Source: Streptomyces sp. NRRL F-5727 (GTDB lineage: Bacteria > Actinomycetota > Actinomycetes > Streptomycetales > Streptomycetaceae). Taken from it: a stretch of 64,000 bases of DNA. Below the pieces are notes generated by a model. The model did not search any database, was not told the origin of the DNA, and was given only the letters and a program-made list of their open reading frames with translations. Positions within the stretch are counted from its first letter, which is position 1. The number at the start of each line of letters is the position of its first letter. The DNA is taken from the NCBI RefSeq assembly GCF_000719555.1, contig NZ_JOGX01000008.1:62001-126000 (forward strand). Direction: 5' to 3'. Below are positions 18,513 through 43,007 of the stretch, one piece after another. A program made the position numbers and the translations under genes.

Positions 18513-20531
18513 GTGCGCTCCCTTCCGAACCCCCAGGTCCGCAACCTCGGCATCCTCGCCCACGTCGACGCGGGCAAGACCACCGTCACCGAGCGGATCC
18601 TCTTCCTGACCGGCGCCGTCCACAAGCGGGGCGAGGTCCACGACGGCACCACCGTCACCGACTTCGACCCGCAGGAGCGGGAGCGGGGCATCACGATCTC
18701 CGCCGCCGCCGTCACCTGCTCCTGGGCCGGTCACGAGCTCACGCTCATCGACACGCCCGGCCACGTCGACTTCTCCGACGAGGTCGAGCGCGCGCTCCGC
18801 GTCCTCGACGGCGCCGTGGCCGTCTTCGACGCGGTCGCGGGCGTCGAGCCGCAGAGCGAGTCGGTGTGGCGGCAGGCCGACCGGTACGGGGTGCCCAGGA
18901 TCGCGTTCGTCAACAAGATGGACCGGGCGGGCGCCGACCTGGACGCGGCCGTCGCCTCGATCCGGGCCCGCCTCGGCACCGTCCCGCTCCCCGTCCAGCT
19001 GCCCCTCGGCCGGGAGGACGACTTCCGGGGCGTCGTGGACCTGGTCCGGATGCGGGCGTACGGGTGGGAGGACGGCACTTTCGCCGAGACCGACGTCCCG
19101 GCAGCCCACCGGGACGAGGCCGTGCGCCGCCGACGCCTCCTGGAGGAGGCGGTGGCGGAGCTGCATCCGGACGCCCTGGACGAGTTCTGCGTCACCGGCT
19201 CGCTGGCGGAGGGGACGCTGGTCCGGGCGCTGCGGGAGTTGACCCTGCAGGGCGCGGCCGTGGTGGTGCTGTGCGGTGCGGCGTACCGCGACCGGGGGGT
19301 GGAACCGCTCCTCGACGCGGTCGTCGCCTATCTGCCCGCCCCCGCCGACCGGCCGCCGGTCGGCGGGGGCGAGCGGGCGGCCGACCCGGACGCGCCGCTC
19401 GTGGCGCTCGCGTTCAAGGTGAGCGCGGCGCCGACCGGCCGGATGACGTACGTCCGCGTCTACGCGGGCACGCTCCGCCAGGGCTCCACCGTGCTCGACA
19501 CGGCCACCGGCCGGACCGAGCGGATCTCCCGCGTGCTGCGCGTGCAGGCCGACCGGACGGTCGACGTGCCCGGTGCGGCCGCCGGGGAGATCGTCGCCGT
19601 GGTCGGTCCGAAGACCGTCCGCGCCGGGGCCACCCTGTGCGCCCCGGAGGCGCCGGTCGTCCTCGAACCGCCGGTGCCCGCCGCCCCGGTGGTCTCGGTG
19701 GCCGTGGAGGCGCGCCGCTCCACCGACACCGGCCGGCTGGCGACGGCCCTCGCCCGGCTCGCCGAGGAGGACCCGTCGCTGGTGGTGCGGACCGACCCGG
19801 AGACGGGCCAGACCGTGCTGTCGGGCCTCGGCGAGCTGCACCTGGAGGTCGCGGTGGAGAAGCTGCGGCGCGAGCGCGGCCTGGAGGTCACGGCGGGCCG
19901 CCCGCAGGTCGCGTACCGCGAGACGGTGACGAAGGGCGTGACGGGCCTGCTGTACCGGCACGTCAAACAGGACGGCGGCGCGGGCCAGTTCGCCCACGTC
20001 GTCATCGACGTCCAGCCCCTGTCCGGAGCGGACGGAGCGGAGGGAGAGGAGGAGTTCGTGTTCACGTCGACGGTCACCGGCGGGCGGGTCCCGCAGGAGT
20101 ACGTCCGCGCGGTCGAGGCCGGCTGCCGGGACGCGCTCGCCGACGGCCCGCTCGGCGGCCACCCGGTGACGGGCGTCCGCGTCACGCTGACGGACGGGGC
20201 GACGCACCCGAAGGACTCGTCGGAGCTCGCGTTCCGCGCCGCCGGCCGGTTCGCGCTCCGCGAGGCGCTCCGGTCGAGCGTCCTGGCGCTGCTCGAACCG
20301 GTCGCCGAGGTGACGGTGACCGTGCCCGGCGACTCCGTCGGCACGGTCCTCGGCGACCTCGCGGCCCGCCGGGGCCGGGTCACCGACTCCGAGGTCCGCG
20401 GCGGTACGTCGGTGGTGACGGCGACGGTCCCGCTGGCCGAACTCTTCGGCTACGCGACCCGCCTCCGCGGCCGCACCCAGGGCCGCGGCACCTTCACCAC
20501 CCGCCCGGCCGGCTACGCCCCGGCGCCGTAG
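18513..20531 (+). CDS. elongation factor G paralogue (FusA2 type)
   Basis: A 672-residue translational GTPase with all G motifs: [10 protein letters not shown] (G1), RERGITI (G2), DTPGHVDF (G3), NKMD (G4), then domains II-V ([79 protein letters not shown]). It is slightly shorter than housekeeping EF-G (about 700) and matches the second EF-G found in many Streptomyces. The paralogue may act in ribosome protection or stress translation. Start GTG 18513 follows GAAAGG. No tuf or ribosomal-protein genes are nearby, unlike the str-operon fusA. A strong terminator follows. Confidence 0.9.
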
Positions 20532-30147: not shown

Positions 30148-32355
30148 ATGCGGCGGGGGTTCGGTGAACGGCTGGGCCTGCCCGGCGCCCTGGGTCCGTT
30201 ACCGCTCGCCCCGCTGGTGACCGAGTACCGCGAACTGACGGAGACGCAGACGGCGGCGGGGTTACGGTACGCGGGCGAGGCGCTGACGGACCCTCAGGAC
30301 GCGGCTGACGGAAGCGCGTTCGTCTCCGTGCTCGACGGGGTCGCGCTGTGCTCCCCGCGCCGGCGGCGGCTGCTCGACGGGGCCGCCCTGGACGCCCTCG
30401 CCGACGCGCGTCCCGCGCACGCGCCGGTGCTGCGGCTGCTCGCCGCGATCCGGCGGCGCGACCCGGCGCTGCTCCGGCGGGTCCTCCTCTACCAGCTCCT
30501 CCCCCTGCTCCGGCAGGGCGCCACCGGCCTCGGGCTCGACCCCGCCGAGGTCCGCCTGCTGACGAAGGCGCTGCCGTCCGTGCCGGTCCTGGACGACCGG
30601 CAGCGGAAGGCAGCCGAATCGCTCGCCCGGCTCTGGTCGACGCGGCGGCTGCGCGGCTGCGACCGCGCGGTGGCGGCCGTCGGGCCGGGCGCGCTGTACG
30701 CCGATCCGTGGCTCGCCGCCTTCGACGTGCGGCTGCACCGGCAGCTCGACCGCTGCGACCGGATGCTCGCCGAGGCGGCGGCCGGCACCGACCCCGCCGA
30801 GGCCGAGGCCCGCTATCTGCGGGTCCTGGCCGTCGCCGCCGACGACGACGAGGCCGTGCGGGGGCTGATCCGGCTCGGCACCGCGCCGGACGGCGGCGAC
30901 TCCGGGCTGACCGCCCGGCCCGTCGGCGGCGGCGCGGTGACGCTCTCCTGGCCCGACACGCCGGGCGTCCGCTGGCGGGTCCTCCGCGACGGCCCCGCCC
31001 TGGACCGGCCGGACCCGGTGCGCGGCGCCGTCGGCGCGGGCGGGGCCGTCTGCGCCGCCGTGGACACCGACCCGCCGGTGGGGCTCCGGGTGCGGTACGC
31101 CGCCTTCCCCGTACGGGACGGGCAGCCCACGGCGGCGCCGTTCGTGTCGCGGGCGCTGCTGGTCGCGCCCGCCGTCGAGGACGTCACCGTCGAGGACGGG
31201 CCGGCGCGGCTCACCGTCCGGTGGCGGCTCCCCCGTACCGCCACCGGCGTCGTCGTGGCCCTCGCCGGACCCCGCGCCGCCGCCGGCCGCCACACCCTCG
31301 GCCGCGTCGAGCAGCACGTCTTCACCGGTCTGGAACCCGGCGCGTACACGGTTCGCCTGACGGCCCGTCACCCCTCGCCCGCCGGCGGGACCGTGGACGC
31401 GCCGGAGGTGGCGGGGAGCGGCACCGTGCACGCGTGGCCCCGGCTGCTCACCGGGCTCACCGCCGAGCCCGGGCCCGCGGAAGGGGTGCGGTTCGCCGGG
31501 CACGGCGGCGAGGGCGCCGAGGTGCGGCTCGTGGTGTGGCCCGAAGGGGCCGCGCCCGCGCCCGGGACCGAGCTGCGCACCGCCGACCTGCCCGCGCCGC
31601 TGCCCTGGGCCCGGTACGGGGACCCCGGCTTCACCACGCCGGACGACGCCTTCGCCGGGCTCGTCAGCGCGGCGACCGTGCTCGGCGAGCGGGCGCTCGC
31701 CGGACCGGGGGTGCGGCTCGACGTGCCGGGCCCGGCGGGCGCGCCCCGGGCCGTGCGCGAACCCGGCGGGCGGGTGCGGCTGTTCTTCGACTGGCCGTCC
31801 GGGGCCGGGACCGTGCGCGCCGCCTGGGACGGCGGCGACCTGACCGCCAGCCGCAGCCGGTACGTCCGGGAAGGGCTCCGGCTGCCGCTCGGCCCCGGCC
31901 CGGCGCGCGTCACGCTCCAGCCGCTCGCGCCCGACGAGCGGCCCGGCTCCGCCGTCCCCGTCCGCCGGGCGCCCGTCGCGGTGGACGTGCCCGGGGAGGC
32001 CGTGGTGCGCTACCGGCTGCTGACCCGGCGGCGCCGGCTCGGCCGCCGGGCCGTGCCGTACGCCGTCGAGATCAGCGCGCACGGTCACGACCCGGCCGTG
32101 CCGCTGCCCTCCTTCGTCCTCGTCCACCGGGGCGGCGACCGGGCCTCCGCCCGGCCCCGGCACGCCGAGGACGGCACCGAACTGCTCAGGGTCGACGGCG
32201 CGAAGCTCGCCGCCGCCCCGCTCCAGACCCGGGCGCTCCCGCCGGCCCCCGACCTCTCCCGCCCGCCGTACGCGCTCCGCGCCTTCCTGCTGGGCGACGG
32301 CGCCGGAGCCGTACGACTCGAAGAACCCGCCCTCACGACCCTGGTGGTGCGCTGA
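30148..32355 (+). CDS. hypothetical multi-domain beta-rich protein, first gene of the GTPase/kinase operon
   Basis: A 735-residue protein without signal peptide or membrane helix. The first ~250 residues are helical (RYAGEALTDPQDAADGSAFVSVLDG, EARYLRVLAVAADDDEAVRGLIRLG), followed by several beta-sandwich modules resembling fibronectin type III: LTARPVGGGAVTLSWPDTPGVRWRVLRDG and DVTVEDGPARLTVRWRLPRTATGVV...LEPGAYTVRLTARH. ATG 30148 has GAAGGG upstream. Its stop is one base before the next ATG. It is probably the large structural or sensor subunit of the system encoded downstream; no enzymatic motif is seen. Confidence 0.7.
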   Translation: MRRGFGERLGLPGALGPLPLAPLVTEYRELTETQTAAGLRYAGEALTDPQDAADGSAFVSVLDGVALCSPRRRRLLDGAALDALADARPAHAPVLRLLAAIRRRDPALLRRVLLYQLLPLLRQGATGLGLDPAEVRLLTKALPSVPVLDDRQRKAAESLARLWSTRRLRGCDRAVAAVGPGALYADPWLAAFDVRLHRQLDRCDRMLAEAAAGTDPAEAEARYLRVLAVAADDDEAVRGLIRLGTAPDGGDSGLTARPVGGGAVTLSWPDTPGVRWRVLRDGPALDRPDPVRGAVGAGGAVCAAVDTDPPVGLRVRYAAFPVRDGQPTAAPFVSRALLVAPAVEDVTVEDGPARLTVRWRLPRTATGVVVALAGPRAAAGRHTLGRVEQHVFTGLEPGAYTVRLTARHPSPAGGTVDAPEVAGSGTVHAWPRLLTGLTAEPGPAEGVRFAGHGGEGAEVRLVVWPEGAAPAPGTELRTADLPAPLPWARYGDPGFTTPDDAFAGLVSAATVLGERALAGPGVRLDVPGPAGAPRAVREPGGRVRLFFDWPSGAGTVRAAWDGGDLTASRSRYVREGLRLPLGPGPARVTLQPLAPDERPGSAVPVRRAPVAVDVPGEAVVRYRLLTRRRRLGRRAVPYAVEISAHGHDPAVPLPSFVLVHRGGDRASARPRHAEDGTELLRVDGAKLAAAPLQTRALPPAPDLSRPPYALRAFLLGDGAGAVRLEEPALTTLVVR

Positions 32356-32356
32356 C

Positions 32357-33607
32357 ATGACGACGGTCATCTGCCCCTACTGCTTTCATCGCGCGCAGGC
32401 CGCACGGCTCCCGTACCGCTGTCTGATGGCGCGGACCGGGCTGCGCGGCGGCTCGCCCTGCGATCCCGAACGGGACGACCGCTGGGCGAGCTTCACGGGC
32501 GCGACCCACGCCCCGGCGGCCTACCTGAAGGGCCCGGTCTTCGTCGCGCCGCGGTCCTTCGGCGGGCTGCGCGGACCCGGGCCGCGCGCCGAGTGCCCGC
32601 ACTGCGGGGTGCCCACCCCGGTCCGGGTGTGCGCCAACTGCCACAGCGACCTGCCCAGCGACTACTGCGAGCAGGACAGCCGGATCATCGCCCTGGTCGG
32701 CGCGAAGGCGTCCGGCAAGAGCACCTACGTCTCCGTCCTCGTCAACGAGCTCCGCCACCGGGTGGGGCAGGCGTACGGGGCGGCGCTCGCCGCCATGGGC
32801 GACGAGAGCCAGCGGCGCGACCGGGAGATGGCCGAGGACCTGTACGAGCGGCTGCGGCTGCCCGACGCCACCATCCCGTCCGCCGTCGGCTTCAACGACC
32901 CGCTGCTGTACCGGCTGAGCCTGCCCCGCAAGGGCTTCGGACGCGACGGCAGCCGGCACACGGCGCTGGTCTTCTTCGACGCGGCCGGCGAGGACCTCAA
33001 GTCGGCCGAGGCGATGAACCGCTACACCCAGTACCTGAGCGCCGCCCACGGCATCGTGCTGCTCGTCGACCCCCTCCAGCTCGGCGCCGTCCGCGACACC
33101 CTCGGGAACGCCGACGGGCCGATGCCCGCCAAGGACATCCCCGCCCTCCAGATCGCCGCCGACATCGCCACCCAGCTCCGCTCGCACGGACACGGCGGCT
33201 CCCGCGGCCGGGTCGGGATCCCGCTCGCCGTCGCCGTCACCAAGACGGACACCGTGCGCGGACTGCTCGACCCCCACTCGCCGCTCCTCGGCAACGCCCC
33301 GCACTCCGGCGGCCGGTTCGACGAGGCCGACCGGCTCGCCGTCCACGAGGAGACCCGCTCGCTCCTGGAGGGCTGGGACTCGGGGGCGCTCTGGCGGCAG
33401 CTTGAGCGGGACTTCTCCGACGTGTCCCTCTTCGGGCTCTCCGCGCTCGGCGCGCCACCGCCCGCCGACGCCCCCGCCGACGTGCCCGCCGCCGGACCCC
33501 AGCCGATCCGGGTCGAGGACCCGCTGCTGTGGCTGCTCGCCCGGCGCGGGCTGCTGCCCGTCGCCCGGCCGCCGCGCGAGAACGGCAAGGGGGTGCCGGC
33601 CGCGTGA
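32357..33607 (+). CDS. zinc-ribbon TRAFAC-type GTPase (double-GTPase system, soluble)
   Basis: A 416-residue P-loop GTPase-like protein. N-terminal zinc-binding segments CPYC...C and CPHCGVPTPVRVCANC (about residues 6-95) precede Walker A GAKASGKST (115-123), the switch-II region FFDAAGED (D208), and a TKTD guanine-specificity motif (D298, NKxD variant). The G-domain is followed by a C-terminal LLWLLARRGLLP helix. These features match the DO-GTPase-like families paired with GAP1 proteins. Predicted soluble; GTP hydrolysis is inferred. The stop overlaps the next start (GTGA). Confidence 0.8.
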   Translation: MTTVICPYCFHRAQAARLPYRCLMARTGLRGGSPCDPERDDRWASFTGATHAPAAYLKGPVFVAPRSFGGLRGPGPRAECPHCGVPTPVRVCANCHSDLPSDYCEQDSRIIALVGAKASGKSTYVSVLVNELRHRVGQAYGAALAAMGDESQRRDREMAEDLYERLRLPDATIPSAVGFNDPLLYRLSLPRKGFGRDGSRHTALVFFDAAGEDLKSAEAMNRYTQYLSAAHGIVLLVDPLQLGAVRDTLGNADGPMPAKDIPALQIAADIATQLRSHGHGGSRGRVGIPLAVAVTKTDTVRGLLDPHSPLLGNAPHSGGRFDEADRLAVHEETRSLLEGWDSGALWRQLERDFSDVSLFGLSALGAPPPADAPADVPAAGPQPIRVEDPLLWLLARRGLLPVARPPRENGKGVPAA

Positions 33608-36090
33608 GCCTCCTCCAGATGCACTACACCTCGGCGCCGCCCGGCCCCGACGGCTCCGGCTTCCGCTTCACCGCCGTCAGCCCCGGCGTACCGCACTCCG
33701 TACTGCGCGAGGCCGAACAGCTCGTCGGGTACGAGCCGCCCCGGGACGCCCCCGCCCGCCCGTCCGAGGCCGAACTCGCCACGTTCCCCGAGATGTTCGG
33801 CTTCGCCCGGCTCTCCGACGGCAGCGGGCTGCTCAGCCGCACCGTCTACACCGGCGCCGACTACAGCGGCCGGTGGGGCAACTTCCACGCCCACGCCGTC
33901 CTCGTACCCGCCGGCGAACCACTCCCCGGCGACCTGCCGCCGATCGCGCTGTGGGGCGCGGCCGAGTGGACCGACCGCTCACCCGAGGCCGGCACCCCGC
34001 CCGCCCCGCTGGCCCGGCTCACCCCCCGGCTCCCCGCCGGAATCGGCGACGAACTGGCCCGGTTCGCCTCCGCGTCGGGGCCCCGGCTCGCCGCCGTCCT
34101 CGCCGACCTGCGGCGCGTCACCGAGGACCCCGCCGCCCCGCAGGTGGTGCTCGCCGAGAGCGACACCCGGAGGGTCGCCCACTGGCTGCTGCTCGCCTCC
34201 GCGGCGCTGCCCCGGGACGCCGCCCGCGGCCTCACCTTCACCACCTACACCCGGCGGCCCCAGCACGCCCGCCAGCAGGTCGTCGGCGTCCGCCCCGAGG
34301 ACGCCCGGGCCGTGACCGGGCAGCCGCACCGGTACGCCGTCCACGACCGCACCGACAGCCACGCCGAGCCGCCCGCCACCGCGGACCTGTGGGCGCTCAC
34401 CGCCGCCGCCGTCTGGGCGGCCGGCGCCGACGCGCTCTTCAAGCGGGCCGAGGACCTGCCCGGCGCCGAGCCGTTCGCCGTCGGGCCGCTCGCCACGCTC
34501 GCGCTCGCCGACGGCGTGCCCGTCCCCGCCGACGCGTACGCCCCGGCCGCCGCCTGGACGACCGGCCACCACCACGCCCTCGGCGAGGACGAGCTGGAGT
34601 CCTTCCTGCGGGCCGTCTGCGCCGAGGGCCGCCCCGGCTCCCTCGCCCCGGACGCCCTCGCCGCCCTGCTCGGCGCGCTCCGCGACACCGTCCCGCTCGC
34701 CGTGACCGCCCCGATCACCGCCCGGCTCGTCGAGGCCGCCGTCCGGGACCCCGCCCTCGCGCCGCCGCCGCTGCCGCCGGGCGCGCTGCCGGAGCCGTAC
34801 CGCGGCCGGCTCACCGACGGGCTCGGGGAGGACGTCCGGGCCGGACTCGGCACGCCCGGCACCCCGCTGCCCCGCACCGCCGGACTGCTGCGGATCGCCG
34901 CGACCCTCGGCATCGACCACGACGACCTGATCCCCGGGCTCGCCGACCGGCTGTGCCGGCGGATCATGGACGGCGCCACCACGACGGGCTCCGGCACCGG
35001 AGCCGTACCGGAACTCCTCGACGTCCTGGACGAGTCCGCGCCGCTGCGGATCGCGCTCCTCGACCTGCTGGAGGCCCGGGCCGCCGACCATCCGGCGGCC
35101 GTGGCCGCCGCGCTGCGCACCGCCCGGCTGCCGCGCGACGGGCTCGGACACCGACCCCACCTGCGGATGTGCGCGGCCCTCGACACCTCCGGGGCCCGGG
35201 CCGGGAACCGGACGCCCGCCCTGCACGCGCTGCTGCGCGCCTCCGGCGGATCCCACCTGGTCACCCCGCTGCTGCTGCGCACCGCGGTGAGCCTGCTCTG
35301 GCAGGACCGCGCGCCGACGGCCGAGGAGGCGTCCCAGCTCCTCGGCGAGAGCGGCGCCGAGGTCCACCAGCTCGCCGGCACCTGGAACGACCTGGTGAGC
35401 GCCGCCGTCGACGCCCCCGCCGACGACACCGCCGCGCCCACCCTCGCCAAGCAGCTCCTCAGGTACGGGCGGGACGCGGTGGGCCGCGCCGCCTACCACG
35501 ACCTGGCGCTGCTCGCCCACGTCCACACCATGGAGCACGCCGACACCGACCCGAGCGCCCCCCACGGCAACCTCGTCGAACGCGCCCGGTCCCTCTCCTC
35601 CCAGGCCCGCCCGGCCACCCAGCAGCGGGCCGCACGGGCCCTCGCCCGGCTGCTGCTGCGGGCCGACCGGCCCGCCCGGGAGCTCCAGGCCCTCGCGTAC
35701 AGCAACGACCCGGGCCTGATCGACGCCTACGCCGACGCGGCCCGCTCCCCCGTCCTCACCGACTTCCTCACCGTCCCGTCCCGCCTCGCCGACTGCTACC
35801 TCGCCTGGAACCTGCACCAGGGCGCGGGCCCGGTCTGGAACCTGACCCGCCGCACCCTGCTGGAGGAGGTGCTGCGGCCCGCCGCGCGGAAGATGCCCGA
35901 CGACCAGCTGCGGCTCGCCGCCGAGCACGTCGGACGGTACGGCGCCGCCCACCGGGAGCTCTTCGAGGAGTGGGCCCGGCCGGCCGGCGGCGTGAAGCAG
36001 CTCCTCCGCCGGATCGGCGGACGCCGGCAGGAGCGGCCCCGGGAACCGCGGTGGGGCGACGTCGAACCGCCCCGGGACGGGGGGAGGTGA
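33604..36090 (+). CDS. GAP1-type GTPase-associated protein
   Basis: An 828-residue protein starting at the GTG overlapping the previous stop. The N-terminal domain (about 1-150: LLQMHYTSAPPGPDGSGFRFTAVSPGVPHSVLREAEQLVGYEPP, FGFARLSDGSGLLSRTVYTGADYSGRWGNFHAHAVLVP) matches the GAP1-N2 domain, and the long helical middle and C-terminal regions fit GAP1-M and GAP1-C. GAP1 proteins were predicted to regulate or be regulated by the neighbouring GTPases. No catalytic motif is recognised. It is flanked on both sides by GTPase genes, as expected for this system. Confidence 0.82.
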   Translation: MSLLQMHYTSAPPGPDGSGFRFTAVSPGVPHSVLREAEQLVGYEPPRDAPARPSEAELATFPEMFGFARLSDGSGLLSRTVYTGADYSGRWGNFHAHAVLVPAGEPLPGDLPPIALWGAAEWTDRSPEAGTPPAPLARLTPRLPAGIGDELARFASASGPRLAAVLADLRRVTEDPAAPQVVLAESDTRRVAHWLLLASAALPRDAARGLTFTTYTRRPQHARQQVVGVRPEDARAVTGQPHRYAVHDRTDSHAEPPATADLWALTAAAVWAAGADALFKRAEDLPGAEPFAVGPLATLALADGVPVPADAYAPAAAWTTGHHHALGEDELESFLRAVCAEGRPGSLAPDALAALLGALRDTVPLAVTAPITARLVEAAVRDPALAPPPLPPGALPEPYRGRLTDGLGEDVRAGLGTPGTPLPRTAGLLRIAATLGIDHDDLIPGLADRLCRRIMDGATTTGSGTGAVPELLDVLDESAPLRIALLDLLEARAADHPAAVAAALRTARLPRDGLGHRPHLRMCAALDTSGARAGNRTPALHALLRASGGSHLVTPLLLRTAVSLLWQDRAPTAEEASQLLGESGAEVHQLAGTWNDLVSAAVDAPADDTAAPTLAKQLLRYGRDAVGRAAYHDLALLAHVHTMEHADTDPSAPHGNLVERARSLSSQARPATQQRAARALARLLLRADRPARELQALAYSNDPGLIDAYADAARSPVLTDFLTVPSRLADCYLAWNLHQGAGPVWNLTRRTLLEEVLRPAARKMPDDQLRLAAEHVGRYGAAHRELFEEWARPAGGVKQLLRRIGGRRQERPREPRWGDVEPPRDGGR

Positions 36091-36097
36091 CCGCGCG

Positions 36098-37702
36098 ATG
36101 GACGGTGGAGACCTGACCTGGCTGATCGTCGTCGTGGTGGCCGCGGTGTGGGCCGTCACGGCCCTCGTGGTCTGCGTGTTCCGGGCGTTCTGGAAACTGC
36201 TCGCCGCCACCTCGCGGGCGGCCGTCACCGCGCTCGGTCCGCTCGGCGCCGGCCGAGCGGACCAGCGGGTGATCCCGATCGGCGCCGAGCCCGCCCACCC
36301 CTCGTACTGGGCCCGGCAGTTGTGGATCGACACGGCCGGCGTCGTCGGCGCCGGGCTGAGGACCCCGTGGCGGGTCTGGCACCACCACTGGATGAAGCGG
36401 GTGGTCGCCCGGCTGTTCCAGGGGCGGCGGCCGACCGGCGGACAGCGCGGGGGCAACCCGTTCACCCGGGCGTGGCTCTGGCTGATGGCCCCCGGCACGG
36501 CGCTCGGCGCGACCGTCGCCGTGCTGCTCGTCGCGGTGCTGCACACCGCCGCGCTGCTCCTCTTCGGGGTGCTCGTCGGCCTCCTGTGGGCCGGCTGGGC
36601 CGCCGCCGTCGGGCTGCTGCGCGGGGCGGAGCGGGCCCGGCTGCTCCTCTTCCGGATCCGGCCGGTCTGCCCGCACCCCGGCTGCCACCGGCCGGTGCCG
36701 CTGGCCGCCCACCGCTGCCCGCACTGCCCCACCGCGACCCACCGGGAGCTGCGGCCCGGACGGTACGGCGTCTTCCGGCACACCTGCGAGTGCGGGCAGC
36801 GGCTGCCCGCCTCCCCGCTCACCGGCCGCGGCCGGATCGCCGCCGAATGCCCCTCCTGCGACCGGCCGCTGCCGCCCGCGGCGGCGACCACCCGGGTGGT
36901 CCACGTGCCGCTGATCGGCGCCTCCTCCTCCGGCAAGACCATGCTGATGGCCGCCGTGGTCGCCGGACTGCGGTCCTGGGCGACGAACGGGAGGCTCACC
37001 CTCGACTACGCCTCCGACGCCGACCGGCACGACAGCGCCCTCCTCGACCAGCGGCTGCGGGACGACGACTGGGCGCTGAAGACCCAGGGCGACCAGCGGG
37101 CCTGGATGATCCTCGTCGGCAAGGGCCGGCAGCGCCGGCTGCTCTACCTGTACGACCCGATGGGCGAGGCGCTCCAGGGCGCCGACCGGCTGCGCGAGCA
37201 GCAGTACCTCGCCCACGCCGACGGCGTCCTCTTCGTGGTCGACGTCCTCGCCGACCGGGCCGTACGGCAGCGCATCGCCGACGCCGACGGCACGGTCGCC
37301 GCCGAGGCCCGGCCCGCCGCCCAGGGACCCGTCGAGACCTTCGACGGGCTCAGCGGCGAACTCACCGCACTCGTCGGACGGAGGGGGAGACTGCCCGTGG
37401 CCGTCGTCGTCACCAAACGGGACGTGCTGGACCGGATCCCGTCGCTGCCGCCCGCGGGCGCCGAGGTCGACACCTGGCTGACCACGCTCGGCCTCGGCGG
37501 GCTCGTCCGCAACTTCACCCACCAGTTCAGGACCGCCCGCTACTGGTCCGTCAGCGCCTTCACCGCCACCGGCACCGGCGCCCTCGACCCCGAGGGCCGG
37601 CGGGCCGCCGAGCCCGTGCTCTGGCTGCTCGCCCGGTCCGGGCTGCGGGTCGGCGCGCTGGTCGACGCGCGGGACGGCGGAGCGGGGGTGCGCGGCCGAT
37701 GA
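36098..37702 (+). CDS. membrane-anchored zinc-ribbon TRAFAC-type GTPase
   Basis: A 534-residue protein with one N-terminal helix (LIVVVVAAVWAVTALVVCVF, residues about 7-26) and a hairpin of two helices (about 131-185: ALGATVAVLLVAVLHTAALLL, VLVGLLWAGWAAAVGLL), then two zinc ribbons (CPHPGCHRPVPLAAHRCPHC; CECGQRLP...CPSC), then a GTPase domain with Walker A GASSSGKT (274-281), YDPMGEA (D353) and TKRD (D442). Membrane anchoring distinguishes it from the soluble partner at 32357. It begins seven bases after the GAP1 stop and ends at ATGA with the next gene. Confidence 0.8.
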   Translation: MDGGDLTWLIVVVVAAVWAVTALVVCVFRAFWKLLAATSRAAVTALGPLGAGRADQRVIPIGAEPAHPSYWARQLWIDTAGVVGAGLRTPWRVWHHHWMKRVVARLFQGRRPTGGQRGGNPFTRAWLWLMAPGTALGATVAVLLVAVLHTAALLLFGVLVGLLWAGWAAAVGLLRGAERARLLLFRIRPVCPHPGCHRPVPLAAHRCPHCPTATHRELRPGRYGVFRHTCECGQRLPASPLTGRGRIAAECPSCDRPLPPAAATTRVVHVPLIGASSSGKTMLMAAVVAGLRSWATNGRLTLDYASDADRHDSALLDQRLRDDDWALKTQGDQRAWMILVGKGRQRRLLYLYDPMGEALQGADRLREQQYLAHADGVLFVVDVLADRAVRQRIADADGTVAAEARPAAQGPVETFDGLSGELTALVGRRGRLPVAVVVTKRDVLDRIPSLPPAGAEVDTWLTTLGLGGLVRNFTHQFRTARYWSVSAFTATGTGALDPEGRRAAEPVLWLLARSGLRVGALVDARDGGAGVRGR

Positions 37703-37893
37703 CCGTGGTCACCCCCCGGGTCTCCCGCTCCCGCAAGGCCGTCCTCGTCCTGCTGCGGACGGCCACCGGCCTCGTCCTCGCGGCGGCGGCGCTCGGCGCG
37801 GTCTACGGACTGCCCGGGCTCGTCGACGCGATCGTCCGGCTCGCCGGGGACGTCCCCGGCCTCTGGGAGGAGCTGACGGCCGACAGCCCCTGA
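37699..37893 (+). CDS. small membrane protein in GTPase/kinase operon
   Basis: A 64-residue protein overlapping the previous stop (ATGA). A basic N-terminus (RVSRSRK) precedes one hydrophobic helix VLLRTATGLVLAAAALGAVYG (about 14-34) and an amphipathic acidic tail (LVDAIVRLAGDVPGLWEEL). It could recruit or anchor the GTPase at the membrane. Short, but its overlap and codon bias support it. Confidence 0.65.
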   Translation: MTVVTPRVSRSRKAVLVLLRTATGLVLAAAALGAVYGLPGLVDAIVRLAGDVPGLWEELTADSP

Positions 37894-37943
37894 CCCGCCT
37901 TCCGTCCCCTTCCCTTCCCCTATCCCTGTTCCAGGAGGACATC

Positions 37944-38642
37944 GTGACCGACCTCCCCGGCGGTGCCATGGCGAACCGCCCGGTGCACTTCATCTGGCTG
38001 CTCGACACCTCGTACTCGATGCTCGGCGAGAAGATCGGACAGCTCAACTACGCGATCCGGGAGGCGATCCCGGAGATGCAGTCGGTGGCCCGCGACAACC
38101 CGGCCGCCCAGCTCCTGCTCCGCACCATCACCTTCTCGACCACCGCCCGCTGGCACCACAAGGACCCGGTCGAGGTGGACTCCTTCACCTGGCAGGACGT
38201 GGCCCCCGACGGCACCACCAACCTCGGCGAGGCGCTCCACCTGGTCGCCGGCGAGCTGCGGACCCCGCCCATGCCGGAGCGGGCCCTCAAGCCGGTGATC
38301 GCGCTGGTCTCCGACGGCGCCCCGACCGACGACTGGCGGGCCGGGCTGCGTGCCATCGAGGCCACCCCGTGGGGCCGCAAGGCCGTCCGGGTGGCCATCG
38401 CGATCGGCGCGGACGCCGACCGGGGCGTCCTCCAGGAGTTCCTGGCCAACCCGGAGCTGCGCCCGCTGGACGCCAACAGCCCCAAGCAGCTCGCCGCCGC
38501 GATCCGCTGGGCGTCGACGGCCGCGGTGAAGGCCGCCTCGCAGCCCGTCGCCGGGGGCCACGTGGGCGACGGCCCCACCAAGCCCGCCGCCCCCTACGCG
38601 CCGCCGGTCCTCGCCGACGACGACGAAGACGACGTGTGGTGA
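37944..38642 (+). CDS. TerY-like vWA domain protein
   Basis: A 232-residue von Willebrand A domain protein. MIDAS metal-binding residues are present: DTSYSM (D21-x-S-x-S), TT in GTTNLGEALHL (about 91), and SDGAPTDDW (D124). The fold is like TerY of the tellurium-stress TerY-P triads; the C-terminus ends in an acidic DDDEDDVW tail. TerY proteins are thought to bind a metal-dependent ligand that links the kinase and phosphatase. GTG 37944 has CAGGAGG upstream. The stop overlaps the PP2C start. Confidence 0.85.
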   Translation: MTDLPGGAMANRPVHFIWLLDTSYSMLGEKIGQLNYAIREAIPEMQSVARDNPAAQLLLRTITFSTTARWHHKDPVEVDSFTWQDVAPDGTTNLGEALHLVAGELRTPPMPERALKPVIALVSDGAPTDDWRAGLRAIEATPWGRKAVRVAIAIGADADRGVLQEFLANPELRPLDANSPKQLAAAIRWASTAAVKAASQPVAGGHVGDGPTKPAAPYAPPVLADDDEDDVW

Positions 38643-39619
38643 GCCCCCTGGCGGACTGGGAGACACTCTGCGAGAGCGTCCAGGGGCTCGGCAAGAAGCT
38701 CAACCAGGACCGGGGCCGGGTGCGGGGCACGGGATCGGCGGAGGACCCCCTGATCCTCACCGTGGCGGACGGGCACGGCTCCGCGTCCTACCCGCGCAGC
38801 GACGTCGGGGCGCACTTCGCCGCGGCCCTCTTCGTCGACAAGGGGCGGGAGTTCGGCAGCTGCCTCGGCCCCGGCAGCCCCGGGGGCCGGCTGAGCCGGC
38901 TGCACGACTACGCCCGGTACGAGCTGCCGGAGCGGCTGGTGCGGGACTGGCAGACGCGGGTGTGGGAGCACTGGCACCGCCAGCCCGGCCCGGAGGGGGC
39001 GGACGCGCCCCGGGAGGACGTGCTGCGGCTGTACGGCTCCACGCTCGTGGGGGCCGTCGTGGTCCCCGGCCTGTTCGTCGCCTGGCAGTTGGGCGACGGG
39101 GAGCTCACGGTTGTGGACGAGGGCGGGCGGGTGCGGCTGCCGCTCGCCCCGGAGCGGGCCGAACTCGGGGACGAGACGGCCTCCTTGTGCCTGCCGGAGG
39201 CGTGGCGGCTGGTCCGGGTGCACTGGGAGCCGCTGCCCGACCCGGAGCGGGGGCCCCGGCTGCTCGCGCTGTCGACGGACGGCCTGTCGAAGAGCTTCGC
39301 CTCGGACGCGGGGTTCACCGCGTTCACGGCGGGGCTGTACGAGCGGCTGGCCGGCCGGGGCGTGCCGGGGATCGCCGAGGACGTGCCGCGCTGGCTGGCG
39401 GAGGCGTCCCGGCACTCCGGCGACGACACCACCCTGGCCCTCGCCCACCGCGCGGAGCGGGACGACGACCCCAGGGCGGCGTGGGCGTCGGCGCCGGAGG
39501 CGGCGCGGCCCTGGGGCCCGGAGCCCGCGGCGGAACCGGAGCCGGGGCCCGTGGCGGAGCCGGACGCCGGGGTGCCGGACGGCACGACGAACGACGACGA
39601 GGAGACGGAACGACGATGA
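38639..39619 (+). CDS. PP2C-type protein phosphatase
   Basis: A 326-residue PPM phosphatase starting at GTG overlapping the vWA stop. Metal-binding aspartates: NQDRG near the N-terminus, VADGHG (D44), STDGLSKSF (D214), GDDTTLAL (D262, D263), as required for Mn/Mg-dependent Ser/Thr dephosphorylation. A Pro/Ala/Glu-rich C-terminal tail (about 280-326) ends in acidic residues. It would reverse phosphorylation by the kinase encoded immediately downstream, whose ATG overlaps its stop. Confidence 0.88.
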   Translation: MSPLADWETLCESVQGLGKKLNQDRGRVRGTGSAEDPLILTVADGHGSASYPRSDVGAHFAAALFVDKGREFGSCLGPGSPGGRLSRLHDYARYELPERLVRDWQTRVWEHWHRQPGPEGADAPREDVLRLYGSTLVGAVVVPGLFVAWQLGDGELTVVDEGGRVRLPLAPERAELGDETASLCLPEAWRLVRVHWEPLPDPERGPRLLALSTDGLSKSFASDAGFTAFTAGLYERLAGRGVPGIAEDVPRWLAEASRHSGDDTTLALAHRAERDDDPRAAWASAPEAARPWGPEPAAEPEPGPVAEPDAGVPDGTTNDDEETERR

Positions 39620-40953
39620 GTGGCATGCTCGACAACGGGGACACCCTGACGACCGACACCGGGGAGACGCTCGTCGTCGACCGCCTGCTCGGCCAGGGCG
39701 GCCAGGGCGAGGTCTACCGGGTGACGCTTCCGGACGGCTCCGCCAAGGCGCTCAAGTGGTACTACCCCGAGAGCGCGACCCCGCAGCAGCGGCAGGTGGT
39801 CGAGGACCTGGTGGCCCGGGACTTCAAGGACGACCGCTTCCTGTGGCCGACCGCGTTCGTCGGCGCGGCCCAGGACCGCTTCGGCTATCTGATGGACGTG
39901 CGGCCGGACCGCTTCCGCGGGCTGCCCGAGCTGTTCCGGCGGACGGTCACCACCAGCTTCCGCGAGCTGCTGACCGCGTGCCTGTACACGGTGGAGGCGT
40001 ACCAGGCGCTGCACTCGCGCGGGATCGCCTACCGGGACATCTCCTGGGGCAACATCTTCTTCGACCCGGCCACCGGCGAGGTGCTGGTCTGCGACAACGA
40101 CAACGCGGTGGTGGAGGGCGACCAGAGCGGCATCTCCGGCACGATGGGCTTCATGGCGCCCGAGCTGGTGCGCGGCGACCCGGGGGCCATGCCGGGCACG
40201 CAGAGCGACCTGCACTCGCTGTCGGTGCTGCTGTTCATGTTCCTGACGAACCACCACCCCTTCAAGGGCAGGCGCGAGTTGGCGATCCGCTGCCTGGACG
40301 AGCACGCGGAGCGCAAGCTGTACGGGCGCGACCCGCTCTTCCTCTTCGACCCGGACGACCCGGACAACCGCCCGGACCCGGTGGAGCACACGACCGTGCT
40401 GGCGCTGTGGCCGCTGGTCCCGCCGTCGCTCCAGCGGCTGTTCACGCAGAACTTCACGGTCGGGCTGCGGGAGCCGTCGGCGCGGGTCCGCGAGTCGCAG
40501 TGGCGGGACGCGCTGCGGGCGGCCCGGGACGCGGTCGTGGAGTGCCCGAACTGCGGTCGGCAGAACATGACCGAGCCGGGCACGGCGACGCCCGGGAACT
40601 GCTGGAAGGACGCGGCGCCGCTGGTGCTGCCGCCCCGGCTCGTGGTGACCACCCCGCCGCCCCGGACGGAGCGGCACGTCCTGCTGGGACGGGCGGCGCG
40701 GATCCACCGCCACCACCTGGCGGCCGAGCCGACCCGGCACGACTACTCGGACGGCAGCCTCGTCGCCGAGCTGGTCGAGCACCCGCAGAAGCCGGGCCGG
40801 TACGGGCTCGCCAACCGCTCGGCGGACGCCTGGACCGGCACCCGCTCCGACGGCACCAGCCAGCGGATCGTGCCGGGCCAGACGGTGCCGCTGCGCTCCG
40901 GCCTCGCGCTCGAACTGGCCGACGGGGCCCGGGCCGTGGTCCGCGCCCGCTGA
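39616..40953 (+). CDS. Ser/Thr protein kinase with C-terminal zinc/FHA-like region
   Basis: A 445-residue protein with a eukaryotic-type kinase domain: glycine loop GQGGQGEVY (about 27-35), AKALKWYY with Lys47, catalytic loop YRDISWGN (D141, N146; HRD changed to YRD), and DND (160-162) in place of DFG. The activation segment GTMGFMAPELV fits. After residue about 300 comes a zinc-finger fragment CPNCGRQ...C and a beta-rich part (LLGRAARIHRHHLAAEP..., SLVAELVEHP, YGLANRSADAWTG, LRSGLALELADG) resembling a degenerate FHA domain. It is the third member of the triad. Lys, Asp and Asn are present, so activity is likely. Confidence 0.85.
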   Translation: MSGMLDNGDTLTTDTGETLVVDRLLGQGGQGEVYRVTLPDGSAKALKWYYPESATPQQRQVVEDLVARDFKDDRFLWPTAFVGAAQDRFGYLMDVRPDRFRGLPELFRRTVTTSFRELLTACLYTVEAYQALHSRGIAYRDISWGNIFFDPATGEVLVCDNDNAVVEGDQSGISGTMGFMAPELVRGDPGAMPGTQSDLHSLSVLLFMFLTNHHPFKGRRELAIRCLDEHAERKLYGRDPLFLFDPDDPDNRPDPVEHTTVLALWPLVPPSLQRLFTQNFTVGLREPSARVRESQWRDALRAARDAVVECPNCGRQNMTEPGTATPGNCWKDAAPLVLPPRLVVTTPPPRTERHVLLGRAARIHRHHLAAEPTRHDYSDGSLVAELVEHPQKPGRYGLANRSADAWTGTRSDGTSQRIVPGQTVPLRSGLALELADGARAVVRAR

Positions 40954-41183: not shown

Positions 41184-41594
41184 TCAGGCGTCTTCCGCGG
41201 GCTTCAGGCGCAGCGAGATGGAGTTGATGCAGTACCGCTGGTCCGTGGGGGTCGGGTAGCCCTCGCCCTCGAAGACGTGGCCCAGGTGGGAGCCGCAGCG
41301 GGCGCAGCGGACCTCCGTGCGGACCATGCCGTGGGAGGTGTCGGCGAGCAGCTCGACGGCGTCGCTGTCCTTCGGGTCGAAGAAGGACGGCCAGCCGCAG
41401 TGCGACTCGAACTTCTCCTTCGACGTGAAGAGCTCGGCCCCGCAGCCGCGGCAGGAGTAGACGCCCTCCGTCCTGGTGTCCGTGTACTCACCGCGGAAGG
41501 CGGGCTCGGTGCCGGCCAGCCGGAGCACCTGGTACTCCGACGGGGTCAGCTGCGCCTGCCACTCCTCGTCCGACTTCTCGACCTCGTACGCCAT
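41184..41594 (-). CDS. msrB: peptide-methionine (R)-S-oxide reductase
   Basis: A 136-residue MsrB that reduces methionine-R-sulfoxide in proteins. Zinc ligands appear as two CxxC pairs, CRGC and CARC; the catalytic Cys is in RYCINSISLRL near the C-terminus; the signature GWPSFF and GHVFEGEGYPTPTDQRYC are complete. It is transcribed on the minus strand 15 bases downstream of murC, probably as one unit. Confidence 0.95.
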   Translation of the reverse strand: MAYEVEKSDEEWQAQLTPSEYQVLRLAGTEPAFRGEYTDTRTEGVYSCRGCGAELFTSKEKFESHCGWPSFFDPKDSDAVELLADTSHGMVRTEVRCARCGSHLGHVFEGEGYPTPTDQRYCINSISLRLKPAEDA

Positions 41595-41609
41595 CGTGCG
41601 TCCACTCCC

Positions 41610-43007
41610 TCAGTTCGCCAGGCGGGCCAGGATCCGCGGACCGAGGTCCGTGACGTCGCCCGCGCCCATGGTCAGAACGAAGTCACCGGGGCGGACCATT
41701 CCCGCGATCACCTCGGGGACGGCGGTCTTGTCGTGGACGGCGGTGACGTCGGCGCCGGCCGCGCGGGCCGCGTCGAGGATCAGCTCGCTGGTGACGCCGG
41801 GGATCGGGTCCTCGCGGGCCGGGTAGATGTCGAGGACCACGGAGGCGTCGGCGAGGGCGAGGGCGTCGCCCATCTCCTTGCCCAGCTCCTGGGTGCGGGA
41901 GAAGAGGTGCGGCTGGAAGACGACGAGGAGGCGGGAGCCCGCGGCGGCGCCGCGCATGGCCTCCAGGTCGGCGGTCATCTCGGTGGGGTGGTGCGCGTAC
42001 GAGTCGATGACCTGGACGCCGGCGGCCTCGCCCTTGAGCTGGAGGCGGCGGCCGACGCCGGTGTAGGCGGTGAGGGCCTGGGCGAGGGCGGCCGGGTCGA
42101 GGCCCGCGCGGGCGCCGGCGGCGAGGGCCGCGGCGGCGTTGTGGGCGTAGTGGCGGCCGGGGACGGAGACGGTGAAGGTGTGCTCGGTGCCGTCGAGGGC
42201 GACGGTGACCTCGCTCTTCATCCCGTTCGGGACGATCTTGAGGATGCGGGCGTCGGAGTCCTCGCCCTCGCCGACGGTGACGATGGCGAGGTCCTGGCGG
42301 CCCTCGGCGGCGACGCGGCGGGCCAGCTCGCGGGCGCCGGCGTGCTCGCCGACGACGAGGGTGCCGCCGGGGCGGATCTTCGCGGCGAACTTCTCGAAGG
42401 ACTCGTAGATCTCGTCCATGGAGGCGTAGTTCGCGTGGTGGTCGAGCTCGACGTTGAGGACGATCGCGACCCGGGGGTCGTACTTCTGGAAGCTGCGGTC
42501 GCTCTCGTCCGCCTCGGCGACGAACACCTCGCCGGCGCCGTGCCGGGCGTTGGTGCCGGGGCCGGCGAGGTCGCCGCCGATCGCGTACGAGGGGTCGGCG
42601 CCGAGCTCGGTGAGGGCGACGGCCAGCATCGAGGTGGTGGTGGTCTTGCCGTGGGTGCCGGCGACGGCGATCGCGGTCAGCCCGTCCATGAGGGAGGCGA
42701 GCGCGTCGGAGCGGTGCACGACCGGGATGCCGAGCTCGGCGGCGCGGGCCAGCTCGGGGTTGTCGGCGCGGATGGCGCTGGAGACGACGACGGCGGAGGC
42801 GTCGTCGGCGAGGTGGTCGGCGGCGTGGCCGATGTGCACGGTGACGCCGTGGGCGCGGAGCGCCTCGGCGGTCGGGGAGTCCTTGGCGTCGCTGCCGGCG
42901 ACCTTGGCGCCGCGCTGGGCGAGGATCTTCGCGATGCCCGACATTCCGGCACCGCCGATGCCGATGAAGTGCGGCCGTTCCATGGCGGCAGGGATGGCGG
43001 GTGCCAT
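41610..43007 (-). CDS. murC: UDP-N-acetylmuramate--L-alanine ligase MurC
   Basis: A 465-residue ATP-dependent ligase that adds L-Ala to UDP-MurNAc in peptidoglycan synthesis. Domain 1: HFIGIGGAGMSGIA; ATP-binding GTHGKTTTTSML; Mg/substrate residues in FVAEADESDRSF and VLNVELDHHANY; domain 3 near VQVIDSYAHHPTEMTADL. The ATG has GGGGAGAG upstream. It is isolated from the dcw cluster here, as in other Streptomyces, and lies between the hypothetical protein gene at 43110 and msrB. Confidence 0.95.
   Translation of the reverse strand: MAPAIPAAMERPHFIGIGGAGMSGIAKILAQRGAKVAGSDAKDSPTAEALRAHGVTVHIGHAADHLADDASAVVVSSAIRADNPELARAAELGIPVVHRSDALASLMDGLTAIAVAGTHGKTTTTSMLAVALTELGADPSYAIGGDLAGPGTNARHGAGEVFVAEADESDRSFQKYDPRVAIVLNVELDHHANYASMDEIYESFEKFAAKIRPGGTLVVGEHAGARELARRVAAEGRQDLAIVTVGEGEDSDARILKIVPNGMKSEVTVALDGTEHTFTVSVPGRHYAHNAAAALAAGARAGLDPAALAQALTAYTGVGRRLQLKGEAAGVQVIDSYAHHPTEMTADLEAMRGAAAGSRLLVVFQPHLFSRTQELGKEMGDALALADASVVLDIYPAREDPIPGVTSELILDAARAAGADVTAVHDKTAVPEVIAGMVRPGDFVLTMGAGDVTDLGPRILARLAN

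Follow-up and report, generated by a model that had tools for sequence, protein, structure and literature searches.

A GTPase-GAP1 operon with a vWA/PP2C/kinase trio in Streptomyces sp. NRRL F-5727 and a GAP1 loop that accompanies its GTPases

The operon and its genes

A stretch of 64,000 nucleotides of Streptomyces sp. NRRL F-5727 (contig NZ_JOGX01000008.1, positions 62,001 to 126,000; here called the window) harbors eight co-directional genes, g1 to g8, on the forward strand between positions 30148 and 40953 (Table 1). The layout given in an initial annotation, with all genes on the same strand and five junctions formed by overlaps or a 1-base gap, agreed with our re-reading. We read the operon, with a probability of about 0.5, as a GTPase switch that has a dedicated regulator and a layer of control by phosphorylation and that is inherited as a unit.

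Table 1. Genes of the operon, with positions in the window and Pfam matches of their products.
Gene	Position	Strand	Length	Product	Pfam
g1	30148..32355	+	735 aa	Helical N-terminal domain followed by beta-sandwich repeats of FN3 type (~255-735)	
g2	32357..33607	+	416 aa	Soluble DO-GTPase2	PF19993, E 1.7e-9
g3	33604..36090	+	828 aa	GAP1 with N2, M and C domains	PF20013/20014/20052, all above cut-off
g4	36098..37702	+	534 aa	Membrane DO-GTPase2	PF19993, E 7.5e-12
g5	37699..37893	+	64 aa	Small membrane protein; start within g4 stop (ATGA)	
g6	37944..38642	+	232 aa	TerY-like vWA, full MIDAS, acidic C-terminal tail with VW end	
g7	38639..39619	+	326 aa	PP2C phosphatase (PP2C_2)	PF13672, E 2.9e-27
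g8	39616..40953	+	445 aa	Protein kinase; degenerate zinc ribbon; C-terminal beta-rich domain	PF00069 (Pkinase), E 1.4e-17

The Pfam matches and the MIDAS and TerY-like identity of g6 bear out the earlier assignments of a GAP1 protein with paired GTPases and of a TerY-like trio, and hydrophobic stretches in g4 are in line with one GTPase being membrane-bound. The g1 protein gave no match in the Pfam search. Its AlphaFold2 (AF2) model (predicted local distance difference test, pLDDT, 90.6) contains FN3-like sandwiches, for which Foldseek/VIA led to fibronectin FN3, and the protein is a candidate sensor. In g2, four N-terminal cysteine pairs (C6/C9, C22/C35, C80/C83 and C92/C95) and the G motifs are conserved (19 sequences). 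The hydrophobic stretches of g4 (residues 2-38 and 126-176, by hydropathy) are followed by conserved cysteines (191-254) and the GTPase domain (270-494). Judged by sequence, the catalytic motifs are retained in g2, g4, g7 and g8; both GTPases carry ribbons and a Glu in the Walker B region, transmembrane segments are present in one of them, and the MIDAS of g6 is complete. The g5 protein combines an N-terminal VTPxxxRxR/K motif with a hydrophobic stretch (13-46, by hydropathy).

The g6 protein falls slightly below the Pfam VWA cut-off and shares 35-37% identity with plasmid TerY/vWA proteins. Asp 44, 153, 214, 262 and 263 of g7, which we take to be the PP2C metal site, are at least 97% conserved (76 rows). 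In the kinase, K47, D141, N146 and D160 are kept in 81/81 rows, with DND in place of DFG. The fourth cysteine of its zinc ribbon (window 40543-40611) is gone in the clade of the window (CWKD vs CWxC), and this change to Asp occurs in 5/81 kinase rows, the window included. A promoter scan of the operon gave no sigma-70-type site and says little at this GC content.

Conservation of the two halves

Relatives were collected from a genus set of 199 genomes and a class set of 394 genomes, with a kinase threshold of E 1e-25. In the genus, GAP1-C was found in 64/199 genomes and the kinase in 25/199; for 24 of the 25 kinases GAP1-C is located 0.8 to 4.0 kb away, and the remaining kinase is on a 5.3 kb contig. 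In the class, the kinase was found in 9/394 genomes. Among the named kinase relatives, the best 80 of 232 were sorted into locus types. GAP1 adjoins the trio in 76 of these 80, and in the remaining four the contig ends before GAP1. The merger of a GTPase-GAP1 module with a vWA/PP2C/kinase module, as put forward in the initial annotation, is thus not confined to the window, and the candidate explanation that the halves are adjacent only in this genome was rejected.

Type A loci (50 complete and 3 cut) comprise g1, g2, GAP1, g4, vWA, PP2C and kinase on the same strand. Type B loci (20 complete and 2 cut) consist of GAP1, vWA, PP2C and kinase with a convergent g1 homolog, and an adjacent DO-GTPase was not found. 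Locus L137 has g1, GAP1, vWA and kinase only. In the kinase tree (careful method), types A and B separate, with L137 within A. Conservation and distance comparisons drew on subsets of the fetched loci (45 rows, 51 rows, or 41 type-A loci plus the window). In the last of these, mean pairwise identities were 83.5% for vWA, 74.6% for the kinase, 73.5% for g2, 58.2% for PP2C, 56.2% for g4, 51.5% for GAP1 and 47.1% for g1, the lowest of the seven genes compared. Gene distances across the two halves correlate (r 0.74-0.97, uncorrected for species kinship).

A small hydrophobic open reading frame (ORF) between g4 and vWA was present in 49/53 type-A loci with one filter; of the four loci that the filter missed, one (L093) has a tblastn match to g5, two (L130 and L170) contain a candidate and L126 has none. 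The final residue of vWA is Trp in 78/79 named loci (Phe in L171), mostly after an acidic stretch, and this tail is a candidate docking peptide. In the type B loci L145, L151, L168 and L171 (13.5-16 kb) the g1 homolog and the kinase gene converge. Upstream of the g1 homolog, a protein of ~450-530 aa of no clear family, with weak matches only, is often encoded, next to which L151 has a small gene for an AsnC-type regulator. A second GAP1 gene is located near the type-A operon in some genomes (L080, 1544-3970; L097, L105 and L139).

Trios without GAP1 were found as well. The most distant kinases of the class set (G364 and G553, 45 and 41% identity) have vWA and PP2C beside the kinase and no GAP1 or GTPase match in the 20 kb fetched. 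Here the kinases lie with vWA and PP2C genes on the opposite strand (L247, 3089-10898, in G364, with two vWA matches; L257, 7477-10497, in G553). On a Methylomonas plasmid (CP157007.1; L090, 10581-18010), a kinase (39% identity over its full length), a vWA protein (53.5%) that likewise has a Trp end (DVW), and a PP2C protein (29%) are encoded together, with no GAP1 among the ORFs listed around the trio. Downstream of it, several ORFs each repeat one small domain (MLD.HPR.QLCF...), a pattern reminiscent of an array of effector-associated domains. These cases show the trio to be a portable module, joined to GAP1 in this lineage. They would also suit two separate systems that became neighbours by hitchhiking, as would the trio without GTPases in type B; given that both halves occur together in all but the contig-cut loci among the best relatives, this explanation is very improbable.

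The initial annotation had phosphorylation gating the GTPases, which is plausible but too strong: as type B keeps GAP1, vWA, PP2C and kinase with no DO-GTPase found, the phospho-switch is not exclusive to the GTPases.

The arginine loop and the fold of GAP1

The type-A GAP1-N2 domain contains a loop of the form YTGxDYSGRxGNFHAHA (residues 82-98 of g3), with Arg90 in the core R-x-G-N (R.GN). In the AF2 model of g3 (pLDDT 89.9), which has a C-terminal helical solenoid, the part Y82-N93 joins two strands. R.GN is present in 48/48 type-A proteins and in none of type B (0/18), L137 (0/1) and lone GAP1 (0/18), the last being GAP1 of kinase-less genomes. The type-A count omits L125 (GAP1 cut by a contig end) and L140 (misassigned start; the DNA carries the motif); in the tree set it is 48/49. 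GTPase-less GAP1 proteins of less than 740 aa (L155, L157, L158 and L163) were omitted, and with these a stricter motif was found in 0/23. In lone GAP1 most of positions 82-93 is collapsed, while thirteen N2 columns around the loop are still 100% conserved. Pfam recognised GAP1-N2 in 19/19 type-A rows vs 3/21 GTPase-less rows.

Genome-wide, two DO-GTPase2 matches each were obtained in eight type-A genomes, and none in 14 lone-GAP1 genomes and five type-B/L137 genomes. In stretches of up to 20 kb around 17 lone GAP1 genes (L192-L197, L248-L256, L258 and L259), nothing beside GAP1 matched a GTPase, the vWA, the PP2C or the kinase of the operon. A search for DO-GTPase1 (PF19975) gave no match anywhere, controls included, and is hence uninformative.

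In the class set (50 loci, of which G364 is without N2), R.GN was found in 45/49 rows, including families distant from type A, in forms such as DPSGRPGN and DYSNRFGN. Since L220 and L228 are one gene (G411), the rows represent 44 R.GN genes, 43 of which have a DO-GTPase (27 in the genome, 16 next door); without five of type A (G505, G056, G544, G580 and the window) 38 are left. The exception is G411, with R.GN present and no GTPase found in 18.4 kb. For the rows without R.GN (G551, G173, G457 and G528), a GTPase was found in none. In total, R.GN is present in 86/86 GAP1 proteins with a GTPase found (48 of type A and 38 others) and absent in 44/45 without one, the latter being related rows and so not 45 independent events (18 type B, L137, 18 lone GAP1, G551, G173, G457, G528, G029, G038, G171 and G411). 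Absence of the GTPase refers to the whole genome for the 14 lone-GAP1 genomes (G029, G038, G171 and G173, and those behind ten of the 18 lone rows), that of L137 and type B genomes G093, G193, G081 and G413, and to the fetched stretch only for the eight remaining lone rows and for G551, G457, G528 (6.6 kb contig) and G411; for most type-B rows it refers to tblastn with type-A GTPases beside GAP1 only.

In the GAP1 tree (quick method, no bootstrap, 58/86 GAP1 rows), lone GAP1 is nested in type A and L137 groups with L108 as its sister, so that two derived losses share one pattern of erosion; type B is a deeper case, with most of N2 changed. Because R.GN is present where a DO-GTPase was found and absent where none was found, the alignments strongly indicate a loop that serves the GTPases, and it is likely the contact point of GAP1 with them. 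DO-GTPase/GAP1 systems occur across multicellular bacteria, and the correlation amounts to a natural experiment that names Arg90. It gives GAP1 a concrete biochemical hypothesis and splits GTPase-dependent from GTPase-independent parts.

The fold predicted for GAP1-N2/M shows a weak and tentative likeness to GTPase regulators of the longin-DENN kind and to TagF of type VI secretion systems, with guanine nucleotide exchange factor (GEF) domain entries of DENND1A/B as best matches. Sequence profiles gave no DENN or TagF match to GAP1, although remote homology may escape them; GAP1 profiles against PDB sequences had one chance-level match each, and a Foldseek search of GAP1 against viral models had none below E 0.001. 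The nature of the best fold matches would suit GAP1 acting on the GTPases as a GEF or being their effector, with the loop merely a binding element, and the loss of the loop indicates loss of the partner rather than chemistry. A conserved Arg in a flexible loop suits an arginine finger, however, and the longin-DENN complexes FLCN-FNIP2 and C9orf72-SMCR8 are GTPase-activating proteins (GAPs), so that a GEF or effector role is considered unlikely.

As a tentative proposal, GAP1-N2/M may be a bacterial regulator of longin-DENN type, related to TagF, that acts with an arginine finger on a Rag-like GTPase pair tethered to the membrane; the trio would then be an assembly switch common to both machines. 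Points of possible likeness between GAP1 and the longin-DENN regulators (FLCN-FNIP2, C9orf72-SMCR8, DENND1) are the weak fold match, the regulation, presumed for GAP1, of membrane-associated GTPases and a candidate finger Arg. The latter regulators are eukaryotic, however, their GTPases are not DO-GTPases, and GAP1 has an extra large helical solenoid. If GAP1 is a longin-DENN relative, a fold of eukaryotic membrane-traffic and nutrient-signalling regulators has a bacterial counterpart beside a kinase/phosphatase switch.

Genomic surroundings, possible roles and known systems

The operon adjoins msrB-murC. In the window (41184-43007) and genus-wide, GAP1 genes of various types cluster near these genes. 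Of the 66 GAP1 places in the genus, 12 are not on the contig of a listed msrB and 19 have no listed msrB place. For the remaining 35 the two genes are on one contig, at most 10 kb apart in 17 cases, at most 50 kb in 26 and at most 500 kb in 34; these distances are biased short because both genes must share a contig. In G170, G082 and G155, lone GAP1 is located ~0.65 kb from msrB. In G042, a relative outside the set of GAP1-C-matching genomes, a conservon-like operon is found on the same side of msrB (L185, 3905-7818), with a NIT/HATPase sensor, a small GTP-binding protein and two small genes in between. Elsewhere in the window (18513-20531), an elongation-factor-G-like protein is encoded, possibly a GTPase of the ribosomal-protection type.

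This address, shared by several relatives, together with the conservon-like operon of G042 and the well conserved kinase, vWA and soluble GTPase, would fit housekeeping or developmental membrane signalling (envelope stress, sporulation timing) as an analogue of conservons and not of defence. The operon is, however, missing from most congeners sampled and so not essential, its distance to msrB varies among carriers, and GAP1 and the FN3 protein diverge fast; we therefore regard such a role as doubtful.

The initial annotation gave a conflict system as one candidate, which corresponds to a published prediction. Kaur, Burroughs, Iyer and Aravind (2020; PMC7159879) predicted that GAP1-N2 systems, which carry an FNIII protein, are conflict systems strongly associated with multicellular bacteria; FN3/GAP1 would sense an invader, the DO-GTPases would set a threshold, and the complex would form a superstructure or kill the cell. 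The patchy occurrence of the kinase in genus and class and the low conservation of the FN3 and GAP1 genes would suit this scheme, as would TerY-P-like modules being stand-alone antiphage systems, as cited in passages of PMC11090510. No effector domain was recognised in the operon with Pfam, PADLOC, NCBIfam and PHROGs. PADLOC matched only the kinase domain of g8 (including the defence-system models mad6 and PD-T4-6), as did NCBIfam and PHROGs with kinase matches only, and mobility or defence families were absent among the seven flanking window proteins scanned. Many GAP1 genes are near the housekeeping genes msrB-murC, and the literature search found only the prediction paper on DO-GTPase/GAP1 systems and no experiment on the layout; the other papers it listed, such as PMC8998981 and PMC1262709 (a kinase survey of 2005), have no bearing on them. 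Defence is a possible role, which we do not favour.

For the GTPase switch under phosphorylation control, the following course is proposed. GAP1 would interact directly with the DO-GTPase pair, making contact via the R.GN loop. Arg90 would most likely be a GAP-type arginine finger in a longin-DENN-like N2/M module, and GAP1 would probably activate hydrolysis. The GAP1-C solenoid and the fast-evolving FN3 protein may scaffold and sense, and the membrane GTPase with g5 would keep the complex membrane-bound. The vWA protein may bind a peptide via its MIDAS and dock via the acidic-Trp tail, and kinase and PP2C would determine the threshold for assembly in the manner of PpkA/PppA of type VI secretion. 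Candidates for the final output are phage defence, envelope stress or development.

Unlike the type VI secretion threonine phosphorylation pathway (PpkA, PppA, TagF), the operon has no Fha or secretion family among its Pfam matches, and no sequence similarity to TagF was detected in GAP1. With the TerY-P triad of tellurite (Ter) and CoCoNuT loci, as described in passages of PMC11090510, it shares a TerY-like vWA, a PP2C and a kinase with a C-terminal ribbon. It differs in that g8 has only 26% identity to the single ter-locus kinase of Raoultella compared, ribbon and beta domain do not align convincingly, and the acidic-Trp tail is absent from the single Raoultella TerY-type vWA compared. The PADLOC TerY model gave no match for g6 at E 1, nor for four non-kinase Raoultella ter-locus proteins, and matched the Methylomonas vWA at E 0.002. 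PDB sequence searches returned nothing at E 1 for the g6 vWA and generic kinases among the 60 matches listed for g8.

The merger of both modules had been taken as possibly undescribed, which did not hold, as the third theme of GAP1-N2 neighbourhoods in PMC7159879 is this layout, as a prediction; the accompanying statement that no experimentally described version is known agrees with our search. As far as the literature searched shows, novelty lies in the correlation of the loop with the GTPases and in the possible relationship to longin-DENN proteins and TagF: the words DENN and longin are absent from the main text of PMC7159879, and no paper on bacterial, prokaryotic or archaeal DENN domains was found. 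Also new here are the GTPase-less variant, lone GAP1 genes near msrB-murC, the conserved small membrane protein and the acidic-Trp vWA tail, none of which, like the Arg loop, is mentioned in the passages of PMC7159879 available. The operon otherwise corresponds to the third theme as given there: it is actinobacterial, with ribbon DO-GTPases (one with transmembrane helices), GAP1-N2/M/C, an FNIII protein, a kinase-ribbon-beta protein (catalytically intact by sequence, its ribbon minus the fourth Cys), PP2C and a standalone vWA. It is a real, conserved member of an already predicted kind.

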